The notes under the pieces are model-generated. The model was not told where the DNA came from and did no database searches. It saw only the letters and a program-made list of their open reading frames with translations. A DNA stretch of 64,000 nt from Miscanthus floridulus. Its lineage: Eukaryota > Streptophyta > Magnoliopsida > Poales > Poaceae. The position numbers and the translations under genes are program-made. The DNA is taken from positions 14,784,789 to 14,848,788 of the forward strand of contig NC_089593.1 in the NCBI RefSeq assembly GCF_019320115.1, in the 5' to 3' direction. Positions 16,870-41,669 of the stretch are shown here, piece after piece; position 1 is the stretch's first letter, and each line of letters opens with the position of its first letter.

Positions 16870-17779
16870 TGTTGATGCAAAAGTGATCTGCAAACACAAA
16901 GGGCTAATACCCGAATCGATATCCAAAGCGTGCCAGTCGATTTGACCTACTAATCGACAAGGATGAAGACACGAACACTTTGATCCTGACAACAGCGATA
17001 CGCCCGGAAGTCACGGCCAAGAGGTGCTCACACGGAACTCGAGAATCGCCGAAGGTCGCACTGAAGCGATGCAGCTCGCCGAATCAATGAGAACTCGTAA
17101 AGAGGAAAAATATGCAAATTGACGAAGTCGCCGAAAAGTAAGTAGATGCAAATAGGAGTAAAAAGTTGGTTTTGATATTGATTGATATTATATTACATTG
17201 CCCTTTACTCCATATTTATACCCTGATCTAAAGAGACACAACCAAACACAACTAGGACACCAATCCCGTATCTAAGGAAACACGTGACTCTTACACGAAT
17301 CATAACCTAACAAATACAGAAAAGGAAACCAACTCCTATCTATTTCCCTGTCCGCCTTAATTACGATGGAAATCTCACTGTCCTCCTTCCCATCGGCATA
17401 CTCCCTATTTCATCGGCAGCAGGCTTCAAGTCTTCCTTCATCGGCATACTCCCTGCTTCATCGGCAGTAGTCTTCAAGTCTTCCTTCATCGGCATACTCC
17501 CTGCTTCATCGGCAGTAGTCTTCAAGTCTTCCTTCATCGGCATACTCCCTGTTTCATCGGCAGTAGTCTTTAAGTCTTCCTTCATCGGCATCGACAACAA
17601 CTCCTCCAACCTCATCGGCAACGCCCGAGTCCAAATCAACCTTTCCATCAATCATCACCAACTATCGGCAACCATTTTTACAAACTGGCTTTCATTGGCT
17701 ATCAAAGTATTCAATAACTTTCCCCTTGCCGATTGGTCCACTCCGATTATTTTGACATGTGCAAAAAACGGTGTCAACA
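16870..17779 (-). repeat. 3' LTR of the gypsy element
   Basis: This 910-bp LTR is TG...CA-bounded, reading TGTTGACACCG...TTTGCATCAACA on the minus strand. It contains four copies of a 48-bp repeat (17391-17582). Compared with the other LTR I see one substitution (C at 17123, T at 28804) plus one extra repeat unit. Confidence 0.9.
17391..17582. repeat. Four 48-bp tandem repeats in the left LTR
   Basis: Each unit carries two TCGGCA words (CATCGGCATACTCCC and CATCGGCAGYAG) and ends TCTTCCTT. The other LTR has three units at 29072-29215. The period is divisible by three, so an open frame runs through it in some readings; I regard that as a by-product. Confidence 0.85.
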
Positions 17780-17797
17780 CATGCCCCCCAATTTCGG
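17780..17797 (-). promoter_or_regulatory. Polypurine tract of the gypsy element
   Basis: On the minus strand AAATTGGGGGGCATG lies immediately upstream of the 3' LTR, the position where plus-strand DNA synthesis is primed. Confidence 0.65.
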
Positions 17798-18203
17798 AGT
17801 ATAAAACCATTAATGCTCCGAAATTTACTCCAGATAACGCTTGCCTTTGCCCAATTACCGTAACTCATTCTCCAAGCCAAAACTTGATTTGTTATCAAAT
17901 CCAATCAAATCTAATCTTGATCCACGCACCTCAGTAAATATCGCACAATCGCCAACCACTCTTGCCTTGATTGAGATACCAAAATAATAACCCATCGGCA
18001 AGATCCTAACATGATAATGCTGCCATTTTAAGAATTAAAATATCATGTATCAATATCCCTTCCAAGTCATGATTGCTTGTTATTAACTCATCTGTACAAT
18101 CCCCTGATTATCGCGCGAATAGTTACCATATCCCCCTGCACCGCCTTGACCTATATGCGCGCGTCATAGAGATAAGTCCAAAATACCCTTATCCTGGCCG
18201 GCT

Positions 18204-18212
18204 TATAAATAG
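18204..18212 (+). promoter_or_regulatory. TATA box of the antisense PMD gene
   Basis: TATAAATAG lies about 165 bp upstream of the first ATG (18375) and precedes a pyrimidine-rich leader (TTCTCTCTCTCC). Position and sequence fit a plant core promoter reading opposite to the element's gag-pol. Confidence 0.5.
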
Positions 18213-18374
18213 ATTTCTCCAGAACCCTCATTTTCTATCTTCAGCCCCCAATCCTTGGCATTCTCTCTCTCCGGCGGCGACTCCGACGAACAACCGCGCG
18301 ACCTCAACCAACCAGAACCCTTCTCCGGCGCTAACTTCAAGTCCCCGGCTCGTATCTCCACCTTCCTCAAGACA

Positions 18375-21300
18375 ATGGCCATCAACTTCGACGTCCCCGC
18401 GGTTCGCTCCACTTCCATTACCTTTTACTTTGATCTTTTTGCAAATTTATTCAGTTGGTGATTTTTCTTTTCTTCTGTCTTCCGGATTCCATAACCTTAG
18501 GAACTGCGCAACAAATTAGTTATCCCAACCGATCAGCCACACGTCCAATGCCTCGGACCAATGGGCAACCCAGATCCAACCGATCTGATCAACGCAGAGG
18601 TTAACAGAATCCCCTTTAGAGCCCAAAATTTCTCTCTGAACTTGTGGAAAGACACATTCCGATCTTGGCCCAAAACCACCAAAGGGTGGAAAGATTGGTA
18701 TTTGAGGGTCAATAGATCGATGCAAGTATACTGGGCAGAGCGAAAGTTAGACCAATGTATCAGGCTCTCTATTGCCGATATGCAGAAAAATGAATCAATG
18801 ATAATTGCAGCTGCTTATTTCTGGTCAGATACGACCAATACTTTTATGTTTGGACATGGCCCAGCTACCCCTACCCTTGCCGATGTCCACATGCTTACTG
18901 GCTTGGACATCTCAACTGCCGATGAAGGCTCCATCTATGGTAGAAAGCCTGAATATAGAGTGAATACCCGTAACATCGGCGGTTGGACAGGATATATTCA
19001 AGAATACCAGAAAACCGGGACACCTAGCCAGAGGGAACATGCCACATTCCTGAATATGTGGTTAGAAAAATTTATCTTCTGTGGTCGATCAGTAGGACCA
19101 ACCAACGCCTTCCTCCCTGCAGCTGAACTTCTGGCTAATGGCGTAAGGTTTCCTCTTGGCCGATACCTTCTGAGCTCTACTTATCATCTTCTTCACCAAG
19201 TGTCTCAGAAACTCCTGCTTGGCGAACCCATCGGCAACCTGGGAGGCCCGTGGTGGTTCATCAACATGTGGCTGAATGCCCATATGCACAAACGTTTGCA
19301 ATGGGACTTTTTTGCTCAACAATTCCCACGAGAAATTGCTGAAGATTATGTGTTCGGGGATGATGAATCGGCAACACGCTCACCCCTCAATTTTGGTGAA
19401 GCCATAATTGTCCTTCCTGGAACAGAAGCCAACGAAGACCAAATCGGCAGATTCTTTCAAAGCTTCTATAATGGCCTTTCTCGTGATCATAGGGCCTGGG
19501 TGCCTTACATCGACGAAGAAAACAGATTCCCCCTTCTTTTCAACTTTGCCGATGACACTCTGAATCAAGATAATGAGCTCATGATGGCTATCATCACTCC
19601 CAGGGCAATTCCAGTAAACACATTCGGCAGCGGGAAAAACACCAACATTACATATGAATTTTACAACCCATCGGCAGTATCCCGCCAATTGGCTTTTGGG
19701 CAACTGCCAATCAAACTCTGCTTTGCCGATGTGATCAAACCCAGGGAAACAATCACCTGCGGAACAGACTGGAACAAGGTAGTACAACTTTCTCCTGATG
19801 CCGATACCACAGATGTTGATATATCCACCTGGACACCAATATCTTTCATCACCGAGTCATACAAGCAATGGTGGCGAGAGTGGAAAGAGCAACTGTTCGC
19901 GACTTCTGCTCACACCTATCGGCACATGATCGATTCTGAATATGCCATCCCTGACGACGCGGTAAGTTTCCTTGAACTCCCTTCTGCTTTTCTTTTCATT
20001 TATTAGTAACTGATTCCCTTGTAACAGGTTAACAACCCAGCACCATCGGTGAGCAAAAGTGGGAAACCCTTCAACCTCCGGCCTATTTCCCCAACATCGC
20101 CGATCGGCTACAACGCTCCCACCTTAGCCGCTTTGACCCACCAGAAGATTCGTACTAAGACCATCACTTCTAAGTCCAAATTGGCTACATCCAGGGCTAC
20201 CCCATCGGCCGCTGCTACAACCTTGGTCAAAGCCTTTAAGGTAACAACCTTGTCTATTTTATTTTATTTTCACTTATGCCGATCACAAACTACATTAACC
20301 TTAATCATTAGGGGGTAAGAGCTGCTACGGGATCGTCATCGGCAATTCCGCCGATATCAAGCACCACTCCTTCAGAGGTAGCTTCTTGACTTTACATTTT
20401 ATCTGTTAAATATCATATCTCACACTTGTTTTGCAGCAACAACTGGGCACATCGGCAAACGTACCAGATGCCCAAGCTTCACAACCAACAAGTGTTGATG
20501 CCCCCCAGCCAATCATTGCCGATGTCCAAGCAAAGCGCAAAGCTTCAACAGATACTGAAGCACAGCCAAAACGACAAAGGTCTATGCCGATCCCTGCATC
20601 TGCCCCAATATCATCGGTCATCATACCTCAAGAGCCCACCACCGATGAAGTCACAGAAGATATCCCATCGGCAAGCTCAGCCGATCCACACGACATACTC
20701 CAGGTTGCTTCCTCCAGTCAAGCACAGGAAATTGCCTTGAAACAGGTAGACCGATCAACCTATCTGATTTTACAATACTCATACTTACCCCTGATTGATT
20801 TCCTTGTCTTTCTCTCAGGAACAAGATTCCCCGAACAGCCTGTTTTCCTTTGCTATTGACATTTCTGACGACGATGGAGAGGAAACAAGTTCTTCCCTTG
20901 CACTGGGAACAATATCGGCAGAGACTAAATCTAAGTTGGAAACCCTCCTGAATTTGCTACAGCAAGGTACCGCCCAACTGGTAGATGATTCGGACCCCGC
21001 AAAGGCAATTTTCAAAACAATTCGCGGCCAGGTCCCTGCCGATGTTGAAGAAATACTCTTCCCAGCAGCTCACTTAGAAAGTCGTCAACTGCAATATCAA
21101 CGGGCTGCTCAGCGCATTGCCGATAGAGCAGCTCAAGCTCAACTTAAAGAGGAGATGCTACAACTGAAACAAATCGCTGATGAGAAGCACAAGGGCATCG
21201 TCAACTTGCAGACTTCGGGTGCTGCACTTAAGCAGAAAATCTTGGATCTATCGGCAAGGAAGGCAGCTCTATTGGCCGAATTGAAAGAAATCGATGCAGC

Positions 21301-21514
21301 CTTAACTCATGCTCAACAAGAAGAAAGCCAGCTACCCAATGCCGTCAAAGCCCTTCAGCAAGAAAGAGATATCCATGCTCGCAAAGCTTTAGCCATGAAG
21401 AAGAAACTCAAGCCTGTGGAAGGTGCTGCCGATGACGATATCAAAGAAATGGAAGAAGCTGACCAGATTCGCCTGCGTGCGATATTAGCTATCCAATCCT
21501 TGCTGAACGTGTAA
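18375..21514 (+). CDS. Six-exon plant-mobile-domain (PMD) protein with NLS and coiled coil, antisense in the gypsy element
   Basis: Exons inferred from GT-AG junctions and frame: 18375-18401, 18501-19961, 20028-20240, 20312-20377, 20437-20745 and 20819-21514. All five introns are phase 0, giving about 923 residues; the first donor (GTTCGC) is weak and the ATG at 18561 is an alternative start. Residues of about 50-480 match the plant mobile domain (PF10536, 'aminotransferase-like'), with cues LADVHMLTGLDI, FLNMWLEKFIF, FPLGRYLLSSTYHLLHQ and GPWWFINMWL. A Ser/Pro-rich linker follows, with a bipartite nuclear signal (KRK at about 622-624, PKRQR at about 633-637). Residues of about 720-915 form a coiled coil. 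PMD proteins occur in transposons and in host factors such as Arabidopsis MAIN/MAIL1, which affect transposon silencing. An analogous role here is inference. The stop is 85 bp from the convergent pol stop. Confidence 0.8.
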
Positions 21515-21599
21515 TCTTATTTATTGTATCGGCACTTTATGAGACATTGATACCCTTGCATAATTCTAGCCGATAGTACTGTTATCGGCACTTATACTT

Positions 21600-24500
21600 T
21601 TATGCATCTGTCCATATACTAGGGTAATATTTCTTTAAATATTTTCCATTTAACGCTCTGGGAAACACAACCCCTTCGAGGGTTTCTAAAATATAGGCAT
21701 TACCAGGAATAGACTGATTTATCCGATATGGACCTTCCCAATTAGGAGACCACTTTCCAAACTTTGAACTTTTAGTCCCAATCGGTAAAACCAATTTCCA
21801 GACCAGATCTCCATCGGCAAACTCTTTTACTTTCACCTTCTTGTCATACCATCTAGCTACTCTTTTCTTATTTTCTTCAATACTAACTAAAGCCCTTAAC
21901 CGATGACCTGCCACATCTTCCAACTCATCTTTCATAAGAGTATTATACTCATCGGCTGTTAGCTGATTTTGAGAACGTATTCGTCTAGAGCCAACCTTAA
22001 TTTCCCAAGGCAACACTGCATCGTGTCCATATACTAACTGATAAGGCGTTACTTTGGTTGCACCATGGCATGACATCTGATATGACCACAAGGCTTCATT
22101 TAATACTGTATGCCACCTCCTAGGATTTTCTTCAATTTTGCGCTTAATAAGTTTGATGATCCCTTTGTTAGAAGCCTCAGCTTGACCATTAGCTTGAGCA
22201 TAATATGGAGAAGAATTTAAAATTTTAATTCCCATACCTACAGCAAACTCATCAAATTCTCCCGATGTAAACATAGTACCCTGATCGGTAGTGATAGTCT
22301 GAGGAATACCAAATCGGTAAACAATATGCTCTTTCACAAAATCAATCATATTGACCGATGTAACCTTTTTTAGAGGAATTGCCTCAACCCACTTTGTGAA
22401 ATAATCGGTAGCAACCAGAATAAATTTATGTCCTTTACTCGATGGCGGATAGATCTGACCAATGAGATCAATAGCCCATCCCCGGAACGGCCATGGTTTG
22501 ATTATAGGATTCATAGCCGATGCAGGCGCTCTTTGAATATTACCAAACTTTTGACACCCCTGGCATCCCTTAAAATATTTAAAACAATCTTCAAGAATGG
22601 TCGGCCAATAGTACCCATTCCTTCTGATCATCCATTTCATCTTGAAAGCCGATTGATGTGCCCCACATACTCCTTCATGAATTTCACCCATCAAGCTTTT
22701 CGATTCATCATTGCTAACACATCTGAGTAAAACTCCATCTATAGTTCGATAATATAATTCATCATCGAGGAGCACATATTTGGTAGCTTGGAACCTTATA
22801 CGTCTCTCGACCTTTCTACATGGATCCTTTAAATAATCGACAATCTCTTTCCTCCAGTCATCGGTATCAACTGCCGATGTTAGCACTTCCTGAATAGGCT
22901 GATACCCTGAAGCATGCTGAGCTAGTCGATTAGCTTCCTCATTATGCAATCGAGAGATATGTTCAAGACGAAAATCTCTAAATCCTTTCAACAATCGCAA
23001 ACACCTTTCATAATATGGAATCAAAGCTTCACTTCGGCATTCATAAATTCCATCTAATTGATTTATAACTAGCATAGAATCGCCAAAGATTTCAACAACA
23101 TCGGCACGTATCTCCTTCAGCAATTCTAACCCTTTTATCAAGGCTTGGTATTCAGCTTGATTATTTGTCGCTGTAGCAACAATCGGCAATGAAAACTCAT
23201 ACTTCTTTCCTTGAGGTGAAATTAACACAATGCCGATACCTGCTCCTTCACCACATGTGGATCCATCGAAGAAAAGTGTCCAGGGAGCAATCCCCAAAGA
23301 ATCCACCGTATTACAATGCTGAGTGACAAAATCAGCCATCACTTGCCCTTTAACTGCCTTAGTTGATTTGTAGCGTAACTCAAATTCTGATAATGCTAAA
23401 ATCCATTTGCCGATTCTACCACTTAATATCGGCATCGACAGCATATACTTGACCACATCGTCTTTGCATATGACCATACACTCGGCAGATAACAAATAAT
23501 GCCTTAATTTGACACAAGAAAAGTATAAGCACAGACACAATTTCTCGATAGCCGAATACCTCGTCTCAGCATCCACTAATCTTCTGCTCAAATAATAAAC
23601 AACACGTTCTTTCCCTTCAAATTCTTGAATAAGAGCTGAACCGATAACTGCATCATCAGCTGACAAATATAACCTAAAAGGCTTCCCATGTTGAGGTGGA
23701 ACTAGCACTGGAGGATTTGATAAATATTTCTTAATTTCATCAAGGGCTAATTGCTGTTCAACTCCCCATACAAATTCCTGATCAGCTTTCAATCTAAGTA
23801 GTGGGCTGAACGCCTTGATCTTACCCGACAGATTAGATATGAATCTTCTAATGAAATTAATCTTACCGACCAAAGATTGTAATTCAGTCTTATTGGCAGG
23901 AGCAATTACCTTGTTAATTGCATCAATAGACTTCCTACTGATTTCAATGCCCCGCTGATGCACCATAAAACCCAAGAATTGTCCTGCCGATACACCGAAT
24001 GCACATTTATTAGGATTCATCTTCAATCCATGCTTCCTTGTGCACTCCAATATCTTTCGCAGATCGGCTAAATGTGCTGTGATATCTCCAGACTTAATTA
24101 CTACATCATCAATGTAGATCTCCACTAATGTGCCGATGTACTCATGAAAAATAAAGTTCATAGCCCGTTGATAAGTAGCACCGGCATTTTTCAAACCAAA
24201 CGTCATGACTATCCACTCGAACAACCCCACATGTCCTGGACATCTAAAAGCAGTCTTGGGAATATCTTCCTCAGCCATGAATATTTGATTGTAACCTGCA
24301 TTACCATCCATGAAGCTGATAATTTGATGTCCAGCCGCAACATCAATCAACAAATCAGCAATCGGCATTGGATAGCCATCCATCGGTGTGGCTTTGTTGA
24401 GATTCCTGAAATCAATACAAACACGAAGTTTTCCATTTTTCTTATAAACAGGAACCACATTAGAGATCCACTCTGCGTATCGACATTGCCGAATAAACTT

Positions 24501-24836
24501 TGCTTCAATTAATTTAGTTATTTCGGCCTTAATGTCAGGAAGTACATTAGGGTTGCATCGGCGCGCTGGCTGCTGATGTGGCCGAAATCCAGATTTGATA
24601 GGTAACCGATGTTCAACTATCGATCGGTCTAACCCGGGCATCTCAGTATAATCCCAAGCAAAACAATCTTTATATTCTTTTAACAAATCTGTTATTCGCT
24701 GCTTACACTTAGAATCTAACTTAGCACTAATAAAAGTAGGCCTCGACCTATCACCATCACCGATATCTACTTCTACTAAATCATCTACCGATGTGAACCC
24801 TTGACCTAATTTTCCATCATCGGCAAACCTATCCAT
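21600..24836 (-). CDS. Gypsy pol: reverse transcriptase, RNase H, archaeal-type RNase H, integrase (1078 aa)
   Basis: Domains in order: RT with EWISNVVPVYKKNGKLRVCID, DFRNLNKATP and the catalytic YIDDVVIKS; an RNase H beginning YLSADDAVIGSAL; a second, archaeal-type RNase H (WTLFFDGSTCGEGAGIGIV, NNQAEYQAL, FGDSMLV) that marks the Tat lineage; integrase with the HHCC zinc region (ending CQGCQKFG), the catalytic core (AIDLIGQ, TTDQGTMFTSGEF, NGQAEASNKGII), and a C-terminal region ending at the UGA at 21600. Catalytic motifs appear intact and there is no frameshift or premature stop. The ATG overlaps the gag-pro stop by one base (TAATG), so expression needs reinitiation, a frameshift, or a spliced or second mRNA. 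Confidence 0.9.
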   Translation of the reverse strand: MDRFADDGKLGQGFTSVDDLVEVDIGDGDRSRPTFISAKLDSKCKQRITDLLKEYKDCFAWDYTEMPGLDRSIVEHRLPIKSGFRPHQQPARRCNPNVLPDIKAEITKLIEAKFIRQCRYAEWISNVVPVYKKNGKLRVCIDFRNLNKATPMDGYPMPIADLLIDVAAGHQIISFMDGNAGYNQIFMAEEDIPKTAFRCPGHVGLFEWIVMTFGLKNAGATYQRAMNFIFHEYIGTLVEIYIDDVVIKSGDITAHLADLRKILECTRKHGLKMNPNKCAFGVSAGQFLGFMVHQRGIEISRKSIDAINKVIAPANKTELQSLVGKINFIRRFISNLSGKIKAFSPLLRLKADQEFVWGVEQQLALDEIKKYLSNPPVLVPPQHGKPFRLYLSADDAVIGSALIQEFEGKERVVYYLSRRLVDAETRYSAIEKLCLCLYFSCVKLRHYLLSAECMVICKDDVVKYMLSMPILSGRIGKWILALSEFELRYKSTKAVKGQVMADFVTQHCNTVDSLGIAPWTLFFDGSTCGEGAGIGIVLISPQGKKYEFSLPIVATATNNQAEYQALIKGLELLKEIRADVVEIFGDSMLVINQLDGIYECRSEALIPYYERCLRLLKGFRDFRLEHISRLHNEEANRLAQHASGYQPIQEVLTSAVDTDDWRKEIVDYLKDPCRKVERRIRFQATKYVLLDDELYYRTIDGVLLRCVSNDESKSLMGEIHEGVCGAHQSAFKMKWMIRRNGYYWPTILEDCFKYFKGCQGCQKFGNIQRAPASAMNPIIKPWPFRGWAIDLIGQIYPPSSKGHKFILVATDYFTKWVEAIPLKKVTSVNMIDFVKEHIVYRFGIPQTITTDQGTMFTSGEFDEFAVGMGIKILNSSPYYAQANGQAEASNKGIIKLIKRKIEENPRRWHTVLNEALWSYQMSCHGATKVTPYQLVYGHDAVLPWEIKVGSRRIRSQNQLTADEYNTLMKDELEDVAGHRLRALVSIEENKKRVARWYDKKVKVKEFADGDLVWKLVLPIGTKSSKFGKWSPNWEGPYRINQSIPGNAYILETLEGVVFPRALNGKYLKKYYPSIWTDA

Positions 24837-27800
24837 TAAAACTCCTCTTCAGAACCGACTGCTTGGATCGGTGGAATTTCATAATCAGCAACTCTAAGGA
24901 ACTCTTTTTCCCAAGCTTCTCCTGATATGCATTTAGTTCGCTCATAAGTATCTGATTCTGCCGATGCGATGATATAAGAAGAATCACCAGGGACGACTTC
25001 AATCTTATCCCCAATCCATTGTACGAGGCATTGATGCATTGTAGAAGGAACACAACAATTAGCATGAATCCAATCCCTCCCTAGAAGCAGATTATATGCA
25101 CCCTTGCCGTTGATAACAAAGAACGTCGTTGGCAAGGTTTTGCTGCCGATGGTCAATTCAACGCATACTGCCCCTTTAGCCGGTGACACATTGCCTTCAA
25201 AATCTTTCAACATCATATCGGTTTTGGTCAAGTCTTGCTCTCCCTTACCAAGTTTCCGATACATCACGTAAGGCATAATATTAATCGCAGCCCCTCCATC
25301 AATAAGTACCTTAGACACAGGCTGCCCATCAACTCTGCCCTTCACAAATAAAGCCTTAAGATGCTGTCTCTCGTCATCGGTAGGTTTCTCAAAAACAGCC
25401 ATCATTGGATCTAGCGTTAGCTGAGCTACTTGATCAGAGAAAACAACTTCTTCCTCATTATCAGATAGTGCCAGAAACTCCATCGGCAACATGAATACCA
25501 TATTAACATCTGCCGATGGACCCTTATTTTTGTGTTTTACCTGCCACTGCTGATGACCAGGCCTTTCATTGGAGGAATTTTCCTCCTGGTATAAATCCTC
25601 CTGACGCTCACGTTGCATCCTCCTCCTCTGCGTCTTTGTCAGACCCTCTGGGCACCATCGAGGAAACTTGGTTTTCCAAACCGGCTGATAACAAGTCCTA
25701 GTTAGTTCCACGCGACGTATATTAGGGTCCCTGTAGAATATCTCCTCATCGGGAACTCTTGCGTTTGCCATCTCCTCAAGCTCCTCTTGATTTCTTGGAA
25801 AATATCCAGCGCGTTTACCAAGCCTCTCATGTACACTAAGTCTGCCCCCCAGCCGATCATGCACTGATGCTCTGCCTCTGATCGGCTCGTTGATAGACAA
25901 ACCCTGATTTACACGTTGAAACCTCCTTTTTGAACGATTGACTCCGTAATAACCATTACACTCAGGGCAATTTTCAACAGTTGGCAATTTAATACCTTCT
26001 TCCCAGCAATGGATGAAGAACGGACATCTCCAATGATCTTTATGTCGATTCCACTCTTCCTGACGTCTCATTTCTTGCTGTTGCCGATATCGGTCATTAC
26101 GTTGATGCCAACCCTCCTGCTGCCTTCGATGAGTAATCACAATGCCAGGTCGAGGAGGTTTTTTGGAACTACTGCTTTCTCCTAGCAAACCCTTACTTTT
26201 TGCATCATCGGTAGTTATCCGATGTTGGGGGTCTACTGACGCGTTTTTCTCAGCAGCCTCTGACGTCAACACCTTGGTCTTTCCTTTGGCATCCAACGTA
26301 TTTGCTGGAAAAGGGTGTTGATCAATTTTCATCGGCTTCTGGGTCTTGGAAATACCAAACTTAATTCTCCCAGATTCAATAGCCGATTGTAACTGTTGCC
26401 TGAATACCTTGCACTCATTTGTACTGTGTGAAGTTGCATTGTGCCATTTGCAGTACAAAATCTTCTTCAACTCTTCTGCCGATGGGATCACGTGATTAGG
26501 TGACAGCTTAATTTGGCCCTCTTGAAGCAGAAGATCAAATATTTTATCGGCCTTGGTGATATCAAAGGTAAACTTTTCTGGCTCTTTTTGACCAAAGGGA
26601 CATGATATCGGCTTTTTATTCTTAACCCACTCAGCTAAGCCGACAACTGGTTCTTCATCAGAGTCAGAATCTCCTACTTCTTCAACAAATGATACCTTTT
26701 TACTCCAGTTCTTTTTAGGTTCAAAAACCCTAGTATCTTGATCAGAGATCCTTTGCACAAGATGACTGAGGCTTTCAAATTCCTGAGAAGCATATCTGTC
26801 CTTAAGATGTGGCAATAACCCTTGGAAAGCCAAATCGGCAAGCTGCCGATCATCCAGCACCAGGCTGTAGCACTTATTTTTTACATCTCGTAGCCTTTGT
26901 ACAAAGCTCTCTACCGATTCATCATTACGCTGTCTCAATTTTACTAAATCGGTAAGCTTCTTTTCATGGATTCCAGCAAAGAAATACTTATGGAATTGTT
27001 TTTCTAGATCAACCCAAGTAATAATAGAATTTGGTGGCAATGAAATGAACCATGTAAATGCTGATCCAGACAAAGATGACGAAAATAAACGAACTCTTAA
27101 TTCATCTCTGTTAGCTGCCTCTCCACATTGAATAATGAAGCGATTGACATGTTCCATTGTTGATGTATCATCTTGCCCAGAGAATTTAGTGAAATCTGGT
27201 ACCTTGTACCGATTTGGGAGAGGAATTAAATCGTATGCAGGAGGGTATGGAGTCCGATAAGAATAAGTATTGACCTTGGGTTTTATCCCAAACTGATCCT
27301 TCATAATCTCTGCTATCTTATTGGCCCAAAAAGCATCAGCCTCCTGCTGACGAACTGGTTGAATTTCTACAGGAGGTGCCTGCTGACATCCCTCCACATA
27401 TCTTTGTGGCCCACGATCTCCAGCAATCGGCATATTTGCCGTTACTTGTGGTCCGTTGACCTGTTGGAAAGGATTCATCGGCTGGGCTGCCGATGCTTGA
27501 TTCTGGAGACCAGCTTGTATATGACCTTGTTGAATCCCTGCAACCTGCTGGTTTCGCTGAACTGTATGTTGAACAGGTAACTGTCCTGACCAATCATTAT
27601 TAGAAATCATCGGTACAAAACCTACCGATGGCTGGTAATTTGCTGATATTGTTGGATAATTATAACTGGTTTGAGGCATGAACTGAACCCCAGTTTGACT
27701 CAAAGCAGGGGCTTTCTGCTGCATCGGCAGTACGCTCGCCGATGGACTTGAATTGAATGTTTGAATCATAGGCATCTGGAAACCTCCTGGAGTTGGTTGT

Positions 27801-28513
27801 ACAGAAGTAGCCGCAGCATATTGAGGCACTTGAGCCATCGGCGAAACGGCCGATGATATAGGCGCTCTTCCTGCTGCATCAAATACTTGAGGTAATCTAG
27901 GATTGAAAGCAGATGACTCTGGAGGCATGCCATATCCCCACCAATTAGTAGGAATCTGGTTATTCTGAGACACAGGGCCTGACATAGTTGATGCCGATAG
28001 ATCTGTATTAAGCTGAATTCGCCCTCCTGGTAGTACCTGATCTGACTGTATCGGTGTAGATTGAATATTAGGTGAACCTGCCAATACTGGAGGGGAAGTA
28101 GCTTCTGTACCCACAACGGCCGAAGGAGCCGATGGAGTTTTGACAGATGCCGGCTCTGGTTGATGATAGGCAGGCCCAACGTAATGTGGTGCCGCTTGTC
28201 CTTCTTTGAGAGTTTGAACCACAGCATTATGAACAGTATTGGACAGCACATTGGAATGATTAATCAAAGCATGATTTACTGCAGAATTAACCATCTCTTG
28301 AAGTTTACCAGGATTGGAGTCAAAGGTAACCTGCCGAGGCAACGGCAAATCTTGCTTCTGGATGACTTGTCCACTCTTGTTCAAGCTAAACGATCTCAGA
28401 CAAAGCTGCTTGTATTCTTCTACAGCCTTTTCCATAGCCTGCCTCTGTTCTTCCTTGAGATCTTCTTCTGATACTGCGATAATGTTCCCTGGATCGATCT
28501 CGGAGTTGAACAT
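24836..28513 (-). CDS. Gypsy gag-protease polyprotein
   Basis: The likely start is the ATG at 28511-28513 (MFNSEIDPGN); the frame stays open upstream into the LTR but that part spans the primer-binding site. The N-terminal half is Pro/Gln-rich. The retrotransposon-gag core lies around 27240-26700 (KYFFAGIHEKKLTDL, RQRNDESVESFVQRL). A cysteine/histidine segment (CKWHNATSHSTNEC) replaces a classical CCHC knuckle. The aspartic protease site VLIDGGAAINIMP lies near 25290; Tat-type elements usually have this DGG-like form. The C-terminus ends EEEF then UAA, overlapping the pol start. The frame is uninterrupted for over 1200 codons. Confidence 0.85.
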   Translation of the reverse strand: MFNSEIDPGNIIAVSEEDLKEEQRQAMEKAVEEYKQLCLRSFSLNKSGQVIQKQDLPLPRQVTFDSNPGKLQEMVNSAVNHALINHSNVLSNTVHNAVVQTLKEGQAAPHYVGPAYHQPEPASVKTPSAPSAVVGTEATSPPVLAGSPNIQSTPIQSDQVLPGGRIQLNTDLSASTMSGPVSQNNQIPTNWWGYGMPPESSAFNPRLPQVFDAAGRAPISSAVSPMAQVPQYAAATSVQPTPGGFQMPMIQTFNSSPSASVLPMQQKAPALSQTGVQFMPQTSYNYPTISANYQPSVGFVPMISNNDWSGQLPVQHTVQRNQQVAGIQQGHIQAGLQNQASAAQPMNPFQQVNGPQVTANMPIAGDRGPQRYVEGCQQAPPVEIQPVRQQEADAFWANKIAEIMKDQFGIKPKVNTYSYRTPYPPAYDLIPLPNRYKVPDFTKFSGQDDTSTMEHVNRFIIQCGEAANRDELRVRLFSSSLSGSAFTWFISLPPNSIITWVDLEKQFHKYFFAGIHEKKLTDLVKLRQRNDESVESFVQRLRDVKNKCYSLVLDDRQLADLAFQGLLPHLKDRYASQEFESLSHLVQRISDQDTRVFEPKKNWSKKVSFVEEVGDSDSDEEPVVGLAEWVKNKKPISCPFGQKEPEKFTFDITKADKIFDLLLQEGQIKLSPNHVIPSAEELKKILYCKWHNATSHSTNECKVFRQQLQSAIESGRIKFGISKTQKPMKIDQHPFPANTLDAKGKTKVLTSEAAEKNASVDPQHRITTDDAKSKGLLGESSSSKKPPRPGIVITHRRQQEGWHQRNDRYRQQQEMRRQEEWNRHKDHWRCPFFIHCWEEGIKLPTVENCPECNGYYGVNRSKRRFQRVNQGLSINEPIRGRASVHDRLGGRLSVHERLGKRAGYFPRNQEELEEMANARVPDEEIFYRDPNIRRVELTRTCYQPVWKTKFPRWCPEGLTKTQRRRMQRERQEDLYQEENSSNERPGHQQWQVKHKNKGPSADVNMVFMLPMEFLALSDNEEEVVFSDQVAQLTLDPMMAVFEKPTDDERQHLKALFVKGRVDGQPVSKVLIDGGAAINIMPYVMYRKLGKGEQDLTKTDMMLKDFEGNVSPAKGAVCVELTIGSKTLPTTFFVINGKGAYNLLLGRDWIHANCCVPSTMHQCLVQWIGDKIEVVPGDSSYIIASAESDTYERTKCISGEAWEKEFLRVADYEIPPIQAVGSEEEF

Positions 28514-28526
28514 ATTGGTTGAAGTG

Positions 28527-28550
28527 TCCCACCAGGCGTGCCAAAAGATG
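28527..28550 (-). promoter_or_regulatory. Primer-binding region of the gypsy element
   Basis: On the minus strand, directly after the 5' LTR end (GCATCAACA), the sequence TTGGCACGCCTGGTGGGAC begins within a few bases. This is the position and wording of tRNA primer sites in grass gypsy elements. I cannot name the tRNA with certainty. Confidence 0.55.
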
Positions 28551-29412
28551 TGTTGATGCAAAAGTGATCTGCAAACACAAAGGGCTAATACCCGAATCGA
28601 TATCCAAAGCGTGCCAGTCGATTTGACCTACTAATCGACAAGGATGAAGACACGAACACTTTGATCCTGACAACAGCGATACGCCCGGAAGTCACGGCCA
28701 AGAGGTGCTCACACGGAACTCGAGAATCGCCGAAGGTCGCACTGAAGCGATGCAGCTCGCCGAATCAATGAGAACTCGTAAAGAGGAAAAATATGCAAAT
28801 TGATGAAGTCGCCGAAAAGTAAGTAGATGCAAATAGGAGTAAAAAGTTGGTTTTGATATTGATTGATATTATATTACATTGCCCTTTACTCCATATTTAT
28901 ACCCTGATCTAAAGAGACACAACCAAACACAACTAGGACACCAATCCCGTATCTAAGGAAACACGTGACTCTTACACGAATCATAACCTAACAAATACAG
29001 AAAAGGAAACCAACTCCTATCTATTTCCCTGTCCGCCTTAATTACGATGGAAATCTCACTGTCCTCCTTCCCATCGGCATACTCCCTATTTCATCGGCAG
29101 CAGGCTTCAAGTCTTCCTTCATCGGCATACTCCCTGCTTCATCGGCAGTAGTCTTCAAGTCTTCCTTCATCGGCATACTCCCTGTTTCATCGGCAGTAGT
29201 CTTTAAGTCTTCCTTCATCGGCATCGACAACAACTCCTCCAACCTCATCGGCAACGCCCGAGTCCAAATCAACCTTTCCATCAATCATCACCAACTATCG
29301 GCAACCATTTTTACAAACTGGCTTTCATTGGCTATCAAAGTATTCAATAACTTTCCCCTTGCCGATTGGTCCACTCCGATTATTTTGACATGTGCAAAAA
29401 ACGGTGTCAACA
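28551..29412 (-). repeat. 5' LTR of the gypsy element
   Basis: This 862-bp copy of the LTR has three 48-bp units (29072-29215) in place of four, and otherwise looks identical to the left LTR apart from T at 28804. The target duplication GCCCC follows at 29413. Confidence 0.9.
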
Positions 29413-29944: not shown

Positions 29945-31505
29945 TGAAAGCATCTAGGCCCCTAGTTGGGTTTCAGTGATTAATGATAATACAAGATTAC
30001 TATGACTCACGTGTGTTTTGCAGAGCCAATTAAGTTAGGTCATGGCAATGGGGATCGATTGGGTAATCGAGGTGGTCATGCCCCTACGATGGAAATCGTT
30101 TTGGTTTTCAAAGGATGGATGACAAGGTTAAGAATGACTAGTTCTAAGTGTCGATTAGAGTTGGAGTGACACTTAGAGTAGTTTAGGACTTTGTTTTTCC
30201 TTTGGCCATACTATTAAGGGGGGTATAGATGGGTAGCTTGACCTAGATGAGTCTAGTGAGTTAGGCGTGGTGCACACTTGTTAAAACTAGCACTAGGTAG
30301 CTCCTACTTATGCCTAAGATCCAATGGAGCAAACTTCATTCACATATGATCGAGAGTTGAAGGTGAATGGAGGGTCAAATACTGATCGGACGCTGGCTCC
30401 GGTGCGACCGGACGCTGGCCGCAGGGTCTAGTCAGTTCATTTGATCAAGAGACTACGTTCGGTGCGACCGGACACTGAGAGGCAGCGTTCGGTCGATTCC
30501 AGTAAGGTTCTAGAGAAAGGAATTCATGACCAGACATGTCCGGTCAGTACTGACCGGACCCTGAGGGTTCAGCGTTCGGTCGAGTACAGTAAGGTTCTAG
30601 TGTGGGTTTAATGCGACTGGACACGTCCGGTCAGTGGTGATCGGACACTGCCAGCGTCCGATCAACACTTAAACACTGGTGTGTGGGTTGAACTGACCGG
30701 AGCATCCGGTCATCATGACCGGAGCGTCTGGTGATCCCGCAGAGGCTCATAACGGTTCATTTTTTAGACTGTCTTATAAATAGAAGCTCCACTCGTGTGT
30801 GGAGTAACTTTTGCTCATTCCAACAGCTGAGAAACATGTTTGTGAGTGCCAAGAAGAGCAAGGTCCTAGTGAGGTGATTGAGATTTGAGAATCCAAGAGA
30901 GTAGCCTCATTAGTGAATCAAGAGTAGCAAAGTGTGCATGCACCATTCTCATTAGGCTTCGCGTGGTCAAGTGAGAGTTCATGCATGTTACTCTTGGTGA
31001 TCGCCATCACCTAGACGGCTTGGTGGTTATTGGGAGCTTGGTGATCACCCGGCGGAGCTTGTGGGTGACCCAACTCAAGTTATGAGCGGTTTTGGGTGAT
31101 TCGCCGCGACGGAGTGTCGAAGAATCAACCCGTAGAGAGCACTTGATCCTTGCGTGGATCAAGGGGGAGCTACACCCTTGCGCGGGTGCTCCAACGAGAA
31201 CTAGTGGGGAGTGACAACTCTCCGATACCTCGGCAAAACATCGCCGCGTTCCTCTCTCTCTATTTACTTTGAGCATTTACTTTGAGTATTTACTTTGAGC
31301 AATTCAATACTTGTTCTTACATTCATAGAATTACCATGCTAGAGTAAGTTTGGAACATAGGTTGCAAGTTCTTTGTGCATTAGATTATTAGAAACACTTT
31401 TATAGGCACAAGGGGTTAATTGGGCTAACCGTAGGATTTAATTATTGCAAGAAAATTTAGAATTAGCCCAATTCACCCCCCCTCTTGGACATCTTGATCC
31501 TTTCA
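29945..31505 (+). repeat. 5' LTR of the copia element
   Basis: This 1561-bp LTR runs from TGAAAGCATC to GATCCTTTCA. It contains the CCGGACGC-type motif array (30380-30740) and a TATA box, CTTATAAATAG near 30773, placing the transcription start around 30800. Confidence 0.9.
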
Positions 31506-31521
31506 ATTGGTATCAGAGACT
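31506..31521 (+). promoter_or_regulatory. Primer binding site
   Basis: ATTGGTATCAGAGAC lies directly behind the LTR and nearly matches the initiator-methionine tRNA complement TGGTATCAGAGC used by most plant copia elements. Confidence 0.8.
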
Positions 31522-31558
31522 CATGCTCACGTTTTTAAGCTTAATCACTTAGAGCAAG

Positions 31559-33952
31559 ATGTCTCACGGGGATGGACCTCCTCCTATCTTTGAGTGAGAT
31601 GACTTTCCATATTGGAAAATCCACATGGAGGCGTACTTAGAAGCTCTAGACATTGGTATTCTTAGAGCCGCCTCACAAGACTTTCCAAAACCTCAAGATG
31701 GTACACACTTACAAGGCGATGAGGTTAATTATGAAAAGTGGAATGCAAAGGCTCGAAACACCATCTTTAGAGGCCTTTGCAAAGATGTGTTCAACCACGT
31801 AAGGAACCACAAAGACGCCCATGCACTATGGTCGGACATTTGTGCGCTCCATGAGGGAACCAAGAGTGAGCGTGAGGAATGCTATCATCTTGTGATTAAA
31901 AAGCTAAATTCATTTGAGATGCTTCCCAAAGAATGTGCTAATGCGATGTATTCACGTTTGAATGTTCTTGTAGAGGAAGTCAATGGGCTTGGACTTACTC
32001 AAATGTCACCATCCGACGTTGTGAGAAAGATCTTGCGTGTCCTCCCCATTGACAAATATGGGCATATTGTGATCGTGCTACATCAAGGTGATCTTTCCGT
32101 CGCTACACCGACACAAATCTTGGGAAAGATCAATGCTCATGAGATGTACATGCATATCACACCACAAGATGGCTCATCCTCTACCAAGAAGAAAGAGAAG
32201 GACTTAGCATTCAAAGCTAGCCAAGATAGGGGCAAAGCAAGACTTGAGTATGAGAGCTCAAGTGATGAAGAAGATGAAGATGAAAATCTTGCTCTCATGG
32301 TGAAGAAAGCCGCCAAGATGCTAAAGAAGTTAAACAAGAGTGGCATCAAGTTTGACAGCAAGAAGAAGAAGTTCTTCACAAGCTCTAGAAGGAAGCCAAT
32401 CTCCAAAATGGATTGCTTCAATTGTGGTGAACTTGGTCATCTAGCACATCAATGCACCAAGCCCAAGAAAGACAAGTTCAAGAACAAGAACAAGGGCAAG
32501 AAAGATGACTCAAGTAACGAAGATGAAGATGAGAAGAGGAAGAACAAGCCATACAAGAAGAGAGATGGCAAGAAGAGAGACTTTTACAAGAAGAAGAAGA
32601 GTGGAAAGGCCTACATTGTTGGTGATTGGCTCACAGACATTGATTCATCTAGTGGATCATCCGATGATGATAGTGACAATGAGAAGGTGGCCACCATTGC
32701 TATTGATTTTTCATCTTCATCGCCATCATCCTCTACACACCTATGTCTTATGGCCAAGGGTGAACGCAAGGTAACTAATAATGATAATAGTAGTGATGAT
32801 GAGCAAGCTAGTGATGATGATAGCGATAGCAATGATGATGATTCACCTTCATATGATGATTTTGTTAAAATACTAAGAAAATACACTAAGATCATTAGAA
32901 AGAGTAGAGCTAAAAATGAAAAGCTTGATGCTAAAAATGATTCACTCTTAGCTAAATGCGATACATTGGAAAAGGCTAATGTTGAGCTCAAAGACACAAA
33001 TGACGCTATATTATCTAAACTCAAGGAGCTCAAATCTTCTAAGAAAGAGCTTAAAGATAAACATGATAAACTTGAGTGGGTGCACAATGAGCTCATCACT
33101 AGCCACAACAAGCTAAAAGATGAATACACTACTCTTAAGATCAATCATGATACTCTTGTTATTGCTCAAGAATTTTTACCAAATGAGCCACATGATGCTA
33201 CTAACCATGTTGTTAAGATTGATATAGCTACATCATGTGATGATTTAATTGACGAGAGCATTGAGCAAGGTTCTAGTAGCAAGGGCAAGCAAGTGGTTGA
33301 GGCCGATGACTATGATGAGTTTGTCAAGCTAAAGAATGACAATGCAAAGCTCAAGAAAGATCTTGAAGAAATCAAAAGCCACAACACCATTGTGCTTGAA
33401 ACCCTTGATCATGATGGTGACTTGATCCTTGAGAATGAGAAGCTCAAAGAGGAAAACAAGAAGCTCAAGGAAGAGAAGAACAATGATGCTCTTAAGGAAG
33501 AGAACAAGAAGCTCAAGATGGAGAAAGAGCATCTCAAGGTTGGTTTGAGCAAGTTCACAAGAGGCAAATATCTTCAAAGTGAGCCACTTATGAACACTGT
33601 CATGAAGATGGATAGAAGTGGCATTGGATATGTGGCAAATGTAGAGAAGAAGAAGGCTCAAGTCCAACAACAACAATCAAAGCCAAAGCCAAAGCCAAAT
33701 AGATATTTTGAATGTGGACAAGAAGGCCACTTTGCTCATGAGTGCCAAACTCCATCACCACAACCCTTGCCCAAGCATGCTAGACCCTTTACCTTCAATG
33801 CTCACTACATGCTTAGAAAGGATTCTAGTGGAAAGATGAAAGTCATGTTTTTAGGACCCCCTAACAAGAATAGGCCTAAGAAAATTTGGGTGGCTAAGTC
33901 ACTTGTTGAGAAGGTGAAGGGCCCTCAACAAGTTTGGGTTCCTAAAGCTTGA
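31559..33952 (+). pseudogene. Copia gag with an early stop and one damaged zinc knuckle
   Basis: The ancestral start is the ATG at 31559. Codon 13 is UGA (31595-31597) in a spot where a tryptophan codon one base away would fit, and an in-frame ATG at 31625 opens 775 further codons. The gag core runs from MEAYLEALDI through the region near 32150. A CCHC knuckle CFNCGELGHLAHQC lies near 32418. A long Lys/Asp/Glu-rich coiled-coil part follows. A second knuckle near 33700 (YFECGQEGHFAHEC) has Tyr in place of the first Cys. The frame ends at UGA (33950), with a second in-frame UAG at 33965 before the protease region. Confidence 0.85.
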
Positions 33953-33967
33953 ATCTCTTGTGTGTAG

Positions 33968-35434
33968 GTGAACTACAAGACCGGTGGAAGTCATTGGATT
34001 ATTGATAGTGGTTGCACTCAACATATGACTGGTGATCCTCGTATGTTCACCTCACTAGATGAAGAGGTAGATGGACAAGAGAAAATAACATTTGGAGATA
34101 ACTCAAAGGGCAAGGTTAAAGGATTGGGCAAAGTGGCAATATTAAATGATCATTCCATCTCCAATGTGCTATATATTGCTTCATTGAGCTTCAACTTGCT
34201 ATCCATTGGACAATTGTGTGATCTTGGCTTCCAATGCTTGTTCACCGAGAAGGAGGTTGTTGTATCCAAGGTAGATGACAATCAAGAGATATTCAATGAA
34301 TTTAGATACAATAACTTATACCTAGTGGACTTCACCTCCAAAGATGCAAACTTGAAGACTTGTCTATTCACCAAAACAACACTCGGATGGCTATGGCATA
34401 GAAGACTTGCTCATGTTGGTATGAGTTCACTCAAGAAGCTAATGAAGAATGATTTGGTGAGAGGGTTGAAGGATGTGAAATTTAAGAAGGACAAGCTTTG
34501 TAGTGCATGTTAAGCCAGCAAGCAAGTTGCAAATACTCATCCAACCAAAGCTTTCATGTCAACCACAAGAGTGCTAGAACTCCTATACATGGATTTGTTT
34601 GGACCAACAACATACAAGAGTTTGGAAGGAAATCTCTATTGTCTTATGATTGTTGATGACTATTCAAGGTATACATGGGTATTCTTCCTTCATGACAAAT
34701 CCGAAGTTGCATCTTGCTTCAAGAAGTTTGCCAAGAGAGCTCAAAATGAATTTGAAGTGAAGCTCAAGAAGATAAGAAGTGGCAATGGAAAAGAATTTGA
34801 CAACACAAACATTGAAGCTTATTGTGATGAAGTTGGGATCAAGCATGAAGTCTCCACAACTTATACTCCTCAACAAAATGGTGTAGTTGAGAGGAAGAAC
34901 CAGACTTTGATTACTCTTGCAAGGATAATGCTAGATGAGTACAACACTCCTAAAGCTCTATGGGCAGAAGCAATCAACACCGCATGTTATGCATCAAACC
35001 GCCTATTCCTTCAAAAGTTCCTTGGCAAGATACCTTATGAGTTGCTCAATGGGAAGAAGCCGGACGTCTCCTTCTTTAGGGTGTTTGGTTGCAAATGCTA
35101 CATCTACAAGAAGCAGCAACACCTAGGGAAGTTCCAAAGACGTTGTGATATTGGTTTTCTTGTTGGTTACTCATTAAAGTCCAAATCATATAAAGTATTT
35201 AATCATGCCACCGGCTTGGTTGAAGAAACATATGATGTAGAATTTGATGAATCTAACGGCTCTCAAGGAGCACATGAGAATCTTGATGATGTAGGTGATG
35301 AACCATTGAGGGAGGCTATGAAGAATATTCCAGTGGGAGACATCAAGCCAAAAGATGATGAAGATAATGTACAAGTCATTAATCAACATTCTTCATCAAG
35401 TGTGCCACAAGATGGTAAAAAGATAGGAGAGTAA
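33968..35434 (+). pseudogene. Copia protease and integrase
   Basis: The aspartic protease site WIIDSGCTQHMTGD is near 33998. The GAG-pre-integrase HHCC zinc region (LWHRRLAHVGM...LCSAC) is followed by a UAA at 34511 where the family normally continues. The integrase core shows the D,D,E pattern (YMDLFGPT; IVDDYSRYTWVFFL; TPQQNGVVERKNQTL). The frame ends at 35434. The downstream RT lies in another frame, so a one-base indel between about 35400 and 35440 separates them. Integrase residues look intact but the ORF as a whole is broken twice. Confidence 0.85.
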
Positions 35435-35466
35435 AAAATGAAGATACTCATGTCTCCCATGAGCAA

Positions 35467-37194
35467 ATGGTGGTACAAGCACAAGATGTTGATGCTCCAC
35501 AACCTCCTCCTCAAGTGGTCAATAGAAGAAATACACCTCTCCTACAAGATCATCCACAAGATCTCATCATAGGGAGTCCATCAAAGGGTGTAATGACTCG
35601 ATATCAAAAACTTGCTTCATTTATTCCTCATCACTCTTTTATCTCTTGCTATGAGCCTACCAAGATAGAAGAAGCTCTTAAAGATTCGGATTGGATCAAT
35701 GCCACGCATGAAGAGATGAACAACTTCACTCGCAATGAAGTTTGGACTCTTGAAGAGCGACCAAAAGGTGCAAGAGTCATTGGAACTAAGTGGGTGTTCC
35801 GCAACAAGCAAGATGATCAAGGTGTTGTTATGAGGAACAAGGCAAGACTAGTTGCAAAGGGGTTCTCCCAAGTTGAAGGTTTGGATTTTGGAGAGACTTT
35901 TGCACCGGTTGCAAGATTAGAAGCCATCCGTTTCCTACTTGCATATGCATCATATCATAAAATGAAACTATATCAAATGGATGTGAAAAGTGCATTTTTA
36001 AATGGCTTTATTAATGAACTAGTCTATGTTGATCAACCTCCCGGGTTTGAAGACCCTAGATATCCTAATCATGTTTATAGGTTGTCCAAGGCACTATATG
36101 GGCTTAAGCAAGCCCCAAGAGCTCGGTATGAACGCCTTCGGGACTTCCTCATTGAGAAGGGCTTCACCATTGGGAAGGTCGACACCACACTATTTACCAA
36201 GAAGCTTGATGGGCATATCTTCATTTGTCAAGTATATGTTGATGATATCATCTTTGGATCATCAAATGAAGACTCATGCAAAGAATTTGGTGAATTGATG
36301 TCAAAGGAGTTCGAGATATCAATGATTGGTGAGCTTACATTCTTTCTTGGTTTTCAAGTCAAGCAAATGAAAGAAGGCATCTTCATCTCTCAAGAGAAAT
36401 ACACAAAAGATCTTCTCAAGAGATTCAAGATGGATGAATGTAAGCCAATCAAGACACCATTGCCTACCAATGGACATCTGTACCTAGATGAGGGAGGTAA
36501 CCCGGTTAATCAAACTCTCTACCATTCCATGATTGGTAGCTTGTTATATTTGACCGTATCTAGGCCCAACATCATGTTTAGTGTGTGTATGTGTGCTAGA
36601 TTTCAAGCTAATCATAAGGAAACACATTTAATTGCTGCAAAAAGAATCCTTAGGTATCTTAAGCACACACCAAGCATTGGCCTTTGGTATCCCAAAGGAG
36701 CTATATTTGAATTAGTTGGCTATTTTGATTTGGATTGTGCCGGTTGCAAAGTTGATAGAAAAAGCAAATCCAGAGGGTGCCATTTGCTTGGTAGATCACT
36801 TATGTCTTGGTCCTTCAAGAAACAAAATAGTGTGGCTTTGTCCACTGCTGAAGAGGAATACATTGCCGTGGGTGCTTATTGTGCACAAATATTATACATG
36901 AAACAAACTTTGCTAGACTATGGAGTAGTTCTAGAAAAGGTACCTCTTTTGTGCAATAATGAAAGTGCGGTAAAACTTGCAAATAATCTGGTTCAATACT
37001 CTCGCACCAAGCACATAGATATCCGCCATCACTTTCTAAGAGGTCATGTTGCTAAAAATGATATATCACTAGAAGGTGTAAGAACCGAATATCAATTAGC
37101 GGATATCTTCACTAAACTGCTAGATGAGGCTACATTTTGTAGATTGCGGAATGAGCTCAATGTACTTGATTTTAGTAACTTCACAAAAAATTGA
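35467..37194 (+). CDS. Copia reverse transcriptase-RNase H
   Basis: The RT core runs through WTLEERPKGARVIGTKWVF, LVAKGFSQVEGLDF, MDVKSAFLNGFINE, ALYGLKQAPRA and the catalytic YVDDIIFGS. RNase H follows with GYFDLDCAG, MSWSFKKQNSVALSTAEEEY and the terminal HIDIRHHFLRGHV. It ends at UGA after LDFSNFTKN. The 575 codons are uninterrupted. It is separated by frameshift from the integrase upstream. Confidence 0.9.
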   Translation: MVVQAQDVDAPQPPPQVVNRRNTPLLQDHPQDLIIGSPSKGVMTRYQKLASFIPHHSFISCYEPTKIEEALKDSDWINATHEEMNNFTRNEVWTLEERPKGARVIGTKWVFRNKQDDQGVVMRNKARLVAKGFSQVEGLDFGETFAPVARLEAIRFLLAYASYHKMKLYQMDVKSAFLNGFINELVYVDQPPGFEDPRYPNHVYRLSKALYGLKQAPRARYERLRDFLIEKGFTIGKVDTTLFTKKLDGHIFICQVYVDDIIFGSSNEDSCKEFGELMSKEFEISMIGELTFFLGFQVKQMKEGIFISQEKYTKDLLKRFKMDECKPIKTPLPTNGHLYLDEGGNPVNQTLYHSMIGSLLYLTVSRPNIMFSVCMCARFQANHKETHLIAAKRILRYLKHTPSIGLWYPKGAIFELVGYFDLDCAGCKVDRKSKSRGCHLLGRSLMSWSFKKQNSVALSTAEEEYIAVGAYCAQILYMKQTLLDYGVVLEKVPLLCNNESAVKLANNLVQYSRTKHIDIRHHFLRGHVAKNDISLEGVRTEYQLADIFTKLLDEATFCRLRNELNVLDFSNFTKN

Positions 37195-41220: not shown

Positions 41221-41654
41221 TCAGGGGAAGCAACTTTTAGGGGGAGCTAGTTATCTATTATTAGCTTATTATATACATTTGGAGTTTTATTTATGTGATA
41301 CACTATTACTATTATGCATTCGTGTGTTTACTTTCATGCATACTATTATATCTATGTGATAGTGATATCTACGTGATTGTGATATATGACATGTGTGCTC
41401 TCTACTTTGTATTCATTGATGTCATATCACTTGTGTTATGCTCATTTGCTTTTGCTTCCGCATTTATACTCTGATGCAAATGAGCTTTATTACTTGTACT
41501 CATACTTATTTCATATCTTTTGAGTACATTATGTTGGCTTGGGTCATATAAGCTTGCCTAATTCTTTTGTTCTTATTGACAAAAGCTTATATGATCCAAG
41601 CATGATAAAAACCTCACTCTTTCACATACTCGAGGTGGTATTGTCATCAATCAC

Positions 41655-41668
41655 CAAAAAGGGGGAGA
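41655..41668 (+). promoter_or_regulatory. Polypurine tract of the copia element
   Basis: AAAAAGGGGGAGA ends one base before the TG start of the 3' LTR at 41670. Confidence 0.85.
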
Positions 41669-41669
41669 T

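Follow-up and report, generated by a model that had tools for sequence, protein, structure and literature searches.

A stretch of 64,000 nucleotides from Miscanthus floridulus (contig NC_089593.1, positions 14,784,789 to 14,848,788; hereafter the window, numbered from its first letter) contains a Tat-type Ty3/gypsy retrotransposon that carries, antisense to its own genes, an apparently intact six-exon gene for a plant mobile domain (PMD) protein. The gene is under purifying selection; predicted models of its PMD match the DNA-binding core of the transposon-encoded protein VANC21; and the word ATCGGC is strongly enriched throughout the element, its most surprising feature. We weigh the proposal that this is a working accessory gene with a VANC-like anti-silencing action on its own family, exerted through binding of the motif, and consider the case for it evenly balanced.

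The element and its antisense gene

A sequence-only reading of the window had described an intron-bearing PMD gene inside a young gypsy element, and this observation is confirmed. Six plus-strand exons (18375-21514), each of a length divisible by 3, join without loss into a 923-residue frame with a single terminal stop. The five introns are all GT..AG and phase 0, with lengths of 59-99 nt and 28-38% GC. The profile PF10536 matches the exon-2 frame at E=2.9e-23 (83 bits, against a curated cut-off of 34.9), establishing the PMD identity that the reading had assigned. The TATA box that it had assigned to the gene is also there, and no ATG lies between this box and the start (18211-18374; 30 copies compared). 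The features of the gene are:

18204..18210, plus strand: TATA box of the antisense gene, TATAAAT in 30 of 30 copies
18375..18401, plus strand: exon 1 (MAINFDVPA), ATG in 30 of 30 copies
18501..19961, plus strand: exon 2, plant mobile domain PF10536, from the profile match and predicted models
20028..20240, plus strand: exon 3, junctions in P0001 and P0002
20312..20377, plus strand: exon 4, junctions in P0001 and P0002
20437..20745, plus strand: exon 5, with the basic stretch KRKASTDTEAQPKRQR, junctions in NCBI proteins
20819..21514, plus strand: exon 6, C-terminus, with weak similarity to DUF1409 (below cut-off)

Two annotated NCBI proteins of M. floridulus bear on the model. P0002 has junctions 2-5 as drawn here; P0001 (isoform X2) has junctions 2-4 and an alternative donor at intron 5. 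Exon 1 and intron 1, which lie outside both proteins, are the part of the model with the weakest support. (In P0002 an integrase core, PF00665, is fused to this PMD protein, which may reflect a nested insertion that the annotation treats as a single gene.) Two further claims of the sequence-only reading stood in part. The basic stretch KRKASTDTEAQPKRQR, residues 622-637, is present, and may act as the nuclear localization signal that was claimed; the claimed coiled coil comes down to weak Pfam matches below cut-off in exon 6 and a crude heptad count.

The gene lies between pol and the 3' long terminal repeat (LTR) of its host, inside a Ty3/gypsy element as in clade PMD-A. The host encodes gag, protease, reverse transcriptase (RT), two RNase H-type domains, and integrase. 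The pol domains occur in Tat order (RT_RNaseH 388-489, RVT_3 527-646, rve 787-883), so that the second RNase H, which we take to be of the archaeal type (aRH), stands between RT-RNase H and integrase as in the Tat lineage (Ogre/Retand). The element is young, as the reading had held: its LTRs differ by one mismatch in 868 aligned bases and by one whole 48-bp, motif-bearing repeat unit. Insertion would date to about 44,000 years ago at a substitution rate of 1.3e-8, which we assume here, and the length of the LTR array seems to change quickly. The primer binding site was assigned to no tRNA. The features of the element are:

16870..29412, minus strand: Tat-type Ty3/gypsy element, about 12.5 kb, from the LTR pair, GCCCC at both flanks, and domains
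16870..17779, minus strand: 3' LTR, 910 bp, 12 ATCGGC (11 in the same orientation), many 20 or 28 bp apart
17780..28550, no strand: internal region, 72 ATCGGC (35 plus, 37 minus), 48 of them ATCGGCA
21600..24848, minus strand: pol, with RT, RNase H, second RNase H-like domain, integrase
24836..28627, minus strand: gag-protease frame, stop to stop, extending 77 bp into the 5' LTR
28551..29412, minus strand: 5' LTR, 862 bp, 10 ATCGGC (9 in the same orientation)

Constraint on the gene and the probable age of intron 2

A protein search of the genome (6834 candidates) yielded 86 scored places, of which 70 have an exon 2 free of stops, and 50 copies (30 plus 20), picked by exon-2 similarity, were read. 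The introns are retained, as the sequence-only reading supposed: all five GT-AG pairs occur in 49 of the 50, the exception being L013, which is rearranged around intron 5. All six exons are open in 36 copies (23 of 30, read as far as 21503, and 13 of 20). Another copy, L033, carries a duplicated inner part of pol; this duplication replaced an initial view of L033 as a mosaic of families, which was rejected, and its motifs are not independent support. Among 28 pattern matches in viral contigs, none is a relative of the PMD gene. A whole-genome search with PF10536 gave 134 matches (10675 candidates, 117 scored), several of them with frames of more than 1000 residues that fall outside the present family.

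Variants seen in a single copy approximate decay after insertion, whereas those shared by at least 3 copies have passed through replication. Exons 3-6, which lay outside the search query, were compared in 48 copies (L013 and L007 being left out of all selection counts, and L033 out of the pol set). Nonsynonymous and synonymous changes numbered 17/36 among shared and 62/56 among single variants (p=0.014), and 11/31 when at least 5 copies were required (p=0.0038). Within exons 3-6 the strongest purifying signal lies in exon 6 (5/23 versus 30/24, p=0.0011); exons 3-5 show no shift (12/13 versus 32/32). The same comparison for pol (20 sequences) gives 22/63 versus 64/67 (p=0.001), so that the constraint on the PMD gene is about as strict as that on pol. 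Four of five control frames of exons 3-6 show no depletion of shared variants, and in antisense frame 2 the depletion is weak (0.49, p=0.1). Exon 2 is strongly constrained in both classes, yet it served as the search query.

Pairwise comparisons over exons 2-6 give ratios of nonsynonymous to synonymous rates (dN/dS) of 0.10 for L055 (dS 0.196), 0.13 for L053, and 0.11 for L054; L056, whose alignment extends no further than exon 4, gave 0.74, a value left out of account. Every intron of L055, in which pol is likewise antisense to the PMD gene, is less alike (0.85-0.92) than any exon (0.93-1.00). Because of this selection and dN/dS of 0.10-0.13, the frame is more than a product of chance, and the selection test proposed with the sequence-only reading came out in its favour.

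Retrotransposons are known to take up host genes (PMC7264820), and a host PMD gene might have been caught antisense by one element and carried along without function. Such a passenger is hardly credible and is rejected on the selection evidence: dN/dS is near 0.1, shared amino-acid changes are depleted as in pol, and most frames remain open. Moreover, annotated proteins of rice and Lolium have a similar layout of PMD and DUF1409 at 31-36% identity.

Intron 2 may itself be old. In 26 relatives whose frame continues past the homologous end of exon 2 (proteins only, some close to the PMD protein), the next residue is V in 18, V stands one column earlier in 4, and the other 4 have R, I, F, or I. 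V (GTN) is the residue expected from read-through of a phase-0 donor. The V group includes P0062 and P0079 of Panicum miliaceum (both among the relatives listed), together with P0102, P0109, and P0117 at 31-33% identity. Because V follows exon 2 in relatives that include P. miliaceum, intron 2 is probably older than the split between Panicum and Miscanthus. Eight annotated rice and Lolium proteins, outside the 26, continue with other sequence.

A predicted VANC-like fold and an element-wide motif

Predicted models of the exon-2 PMD match the core fold of VANC21 in its DNA-bound structure (9lnj); the absence of other folds from these structure comparisons carries no evidential weight. At the sequence level, a profile of A2 against PDB sequences gave 9 matches at E<=10 (best 1.1), with 9lnj not among them. 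DUF1985, which we take to be PF09331, was absent at E<=10 both from the 3 families listed for the window and from the 25 listed of 38 families for 45 members. Since the domain did not appear in these listings, the PMD protein was not filed as a VANC. Another mark of VANC systems, a short family-specific motif dense in its own element, was found, its specificity being judged from one other locus.

The parallel with VANC21 is the reason that words were counted in the element; the motif, which the sequence-only reading does not mention, emerged after that match, when every 6-, 7-, and 8-mer was scanned. With its complement included, ATCGGC has 72 occurrences in the internal region of 10.8 kb, against a mean of 3.9 and a maximum of 12 in 300 shuffles, and 94 in the whole element, LTRs included. 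ATCGGCA occurs 48 times internally (1.2 expected), and 3 times in the remaining 51 kb of the window. The best-word z is 35.6 in the element, compared with 6.5 to 13.8 in five other 10.8-kb stretches of the window. The word is preceded by C or T in 74 of 94 cases and followed by A in 70 (YATCGGCA). Its strands are balanced in the internal region and one-sided in the LTRs.

Frame use in the coding parts is uneven, yet several frames on both strands are used, and synonymous-codon shuffles of the PMD gene, pol, and gag fall far below the observed counts. In 41 distant proteins the motif dipeptide AD occurs at 1.94 times expectation, and DA also at 1.78 times.

Support for conservation of the motif is moderate and mixed (L013 and L007 left out, and L033, L042, and L050 left out of the pol part). 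In the PMD gene and pol taken together, a shared variant falls on 1 of the 94 CpG positions inside motifs and on 22 of the 312 outside them (p=0.023); the LTR brings these counts to 1 of 118 and 23 of 362 (p=0.014). Single-copy variants differ between the two kinds of position in pol (0/33 versus 18/149) and do not in the PMD gene (12/61 versus 33/163). Retention of the hexamer exceeds that of CpG controls in the PMD gene (0.965 versus 0.863, p=0.023) and in pol (0.976 versus 0.839, p=0.005), with no excess in the LTR (0.857 versus 0.911, p=0.69). Measured against L055, motif retention is 26/29 versus 53/79 in the gene (p=0.026), 32/37 versus 78/108 in the gene plus part of pol (p=0.12), and 10/13 versus 21/34 in the LTR and leader (p=0.49).

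A second family is represented by a sole locus, L057, which comprises 1.49 kb of a divergent PMD copy (39% protein identity, three stops). It contains 8 ATCGGC, against a mean of 2.5 and a maximum of 7 in 2000 synonymous shuffles. Only 3 of the 8 stand at positions homologous to the studied gene, and therefore most of its motifs were not inherited in place. The seventh base is T (ATCGGCT) in 7 of 8, versus 14 of 94 in the studied element (p=4e-5). Such a difference by family, drawn from one locus, would be as expected if protein and target changed together.

Might the motif have nothing to do with the PMD protein? It could be used by a host factor, for instance a transcription factor, or meet a structural requirement such as DNA packing; template switching could also have carried it outward from the LTR repeat. 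The same word does occur in LTR arrays and in codons, and its internal spacing is random-like (coefficient of variation 1.00, random 0.97). This explanation nevertheless seems improbable to us. Bases beyond one or two positions on either side are not conserved, unlike copied repeat units; the divergent family has both a changed seventh base and mostly other positions; and two PMD loci retrieved as potential remote relatives, L051 and L052, which gave no tblastn match to the PMD gene or pol and may be of MULE type or host genes, show no excess (2 ATCGGC each in 5.2 kb).

Other repeats occur in the window. An adjacent older LTR element (29945-43219; LTRs 90.5% identical), presumably copia-like from motifs in its frames, has no ATCGGCA; it has clusters of GACCGGA at about 30.4-30.7, 37.5-37.9, and 42.1-42.4 kb, outside long frames. 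Between 5700 and 10000 there are clusters of ACCGGAC (about 6.6-6.9 kb) and ACCGAAC (about 9.5-9.9 kb), and at 45813-46238 lie tandem repeats that have diverged, spaced about 90 to 210 bp apart.

Known systems and a model for the PMD gene

The gene itself is not new in kind, since gypsy-encoded PMDs are already published; Steinbauerova 2011 is reportedly the first account. PMD-A1 and PMD-A2 are Gypsy-encoded clades (PMC5418596), and a PMD is present in 57% of Ogre elements (PMC6317226). Among the atypical domains recorded in a survey of plant gypsy elements, the PMD was the commonest (PMC9289625). This class of PF10536 proteins is spread over angiosperms (PMC5418596, PMC6317226). The available portions of these two papers make no mention of introns, dN/dS, a VANC-like fold, or a motif. 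Within the literature available to us, no report was found that ties PMD structurally to VANC (the paper behind 9lnj may discuss PMD), notes a motif distributed over whole PMD gypsy elements, or treats introns of the antisense gene.

Other systems share parts of this arrangement. VANC21 and VANC6 of VANDAL MULEs are likewise transposon-encoded, with the predicted shared fold, and their elements have a dense, family-specific short motif in one-orientation arrays (PMC5735166, PMC10398659). VANDALs differ in being DNA transposons with a different motif, arrays mainly in non-coding DNA, and no sequence similarity found to the PMD protein. Binding and methylation loss are demonstrated for VANC21 and VANC6, whereas the PMD element is known here from sequence and models. 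In 2025 Kakutani presented unpublished work on the structure of VANC and on its target DNA (PMC12859917). The antisense frames of Tat elements (aORFs/eORF-3'R: Grande gene23, RIRE2, Retand TRP28) also lie between pol and the 3' LTR, and that of Grande has its own promoter and a nuclear protein (PMC7264820, PMC11963269). They differ in their Transposase_28 domain (PF04195), which had no match at E 0.05 in P0001, a protein covering what corresponds to exons 2-6, or in exon 6, P0003, or gag; the word intron is absent from the main text of both papers. HBZ, a regulatory gene of the retroelement HTLV-1, is likewise spliced and antisense (PMC12313066). HTLV-1 differs as an animal retrovirus in which HBZ is transcribed from the 3' LTR. 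We know of no relation between HBZ and PMD proteins.

In our preferred model, the PMD gene would serve the retrotransposon as a functional accessory gene. Its own promoter would drive transcription opposite to the genomic RNA of the element; in that RNA its introns would not be splice signals, and so would survive reverse transcription. The antisense placement fits as the reason for the surviving introns. The spliced product would be a nuclear protein whose PMD, with the VANC21 fold, binds YATCGGCA, both at dispersed sites across the element and in the arrays of its LTRs. Once bound, it may act like VANDAL VANC and remove or block silent marks on its own family.

The sequence-only reading had drawn its link to silencing from MAIN and MAIL1 of Arabidopsis. 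These PMD proteins interact with PP7L and act in transposable element (TE) silencing (PMC7156037); they differ from the present protein in being encoded by the host, in falling within clade PMD-C, and in promoting silencing (PMC5418596, PMC7156037). The VANC21-like predicted fold and the element-wide motif offer a candidate link by another route. An unlikely, though serious, alternative is that the protein is a selected accessory factor acting through protein contacts, with a motif that is unrelated: for example, by interfering with host MAIN, MAIL1, or PP7L, or by aiding nuclear entry of the pre-integration complex. A counter-silencing role for TE-encoded PMDs has been suggested in print, in a paper that calls PMD function unknown (PMC8616336), and selection on the gene is silent on what the protein does. 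Protein contacts leave unexplained both the motif and the match to a DNA-bound structure.

More tentatively than the anti-silencing model itself, we suggest that PMD and VANC may be one ancient, transposon-born DNA-binding fold. Grass gypsy elements would then use it for sequence-specific anti-silencing, with a target word written into LTRs, gag, pol, and the PMD gene without spoiling the proteins, and with word and protein coevolving by family (ATCGGCA, ATCGGCT). If so, LTR retrotransposons would have a VANC-like escape from silencing, and MAIN and MAIL1, which act in silencing for the host, would be related to the anti-silencers that TEs encode, giving a host pathway common roots with them. 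A DNA code would be overlaid on the protein code along an entire retrotransposon. The shared predicted fold and candidate target word reduce the question of PMD function to a single binding assay.
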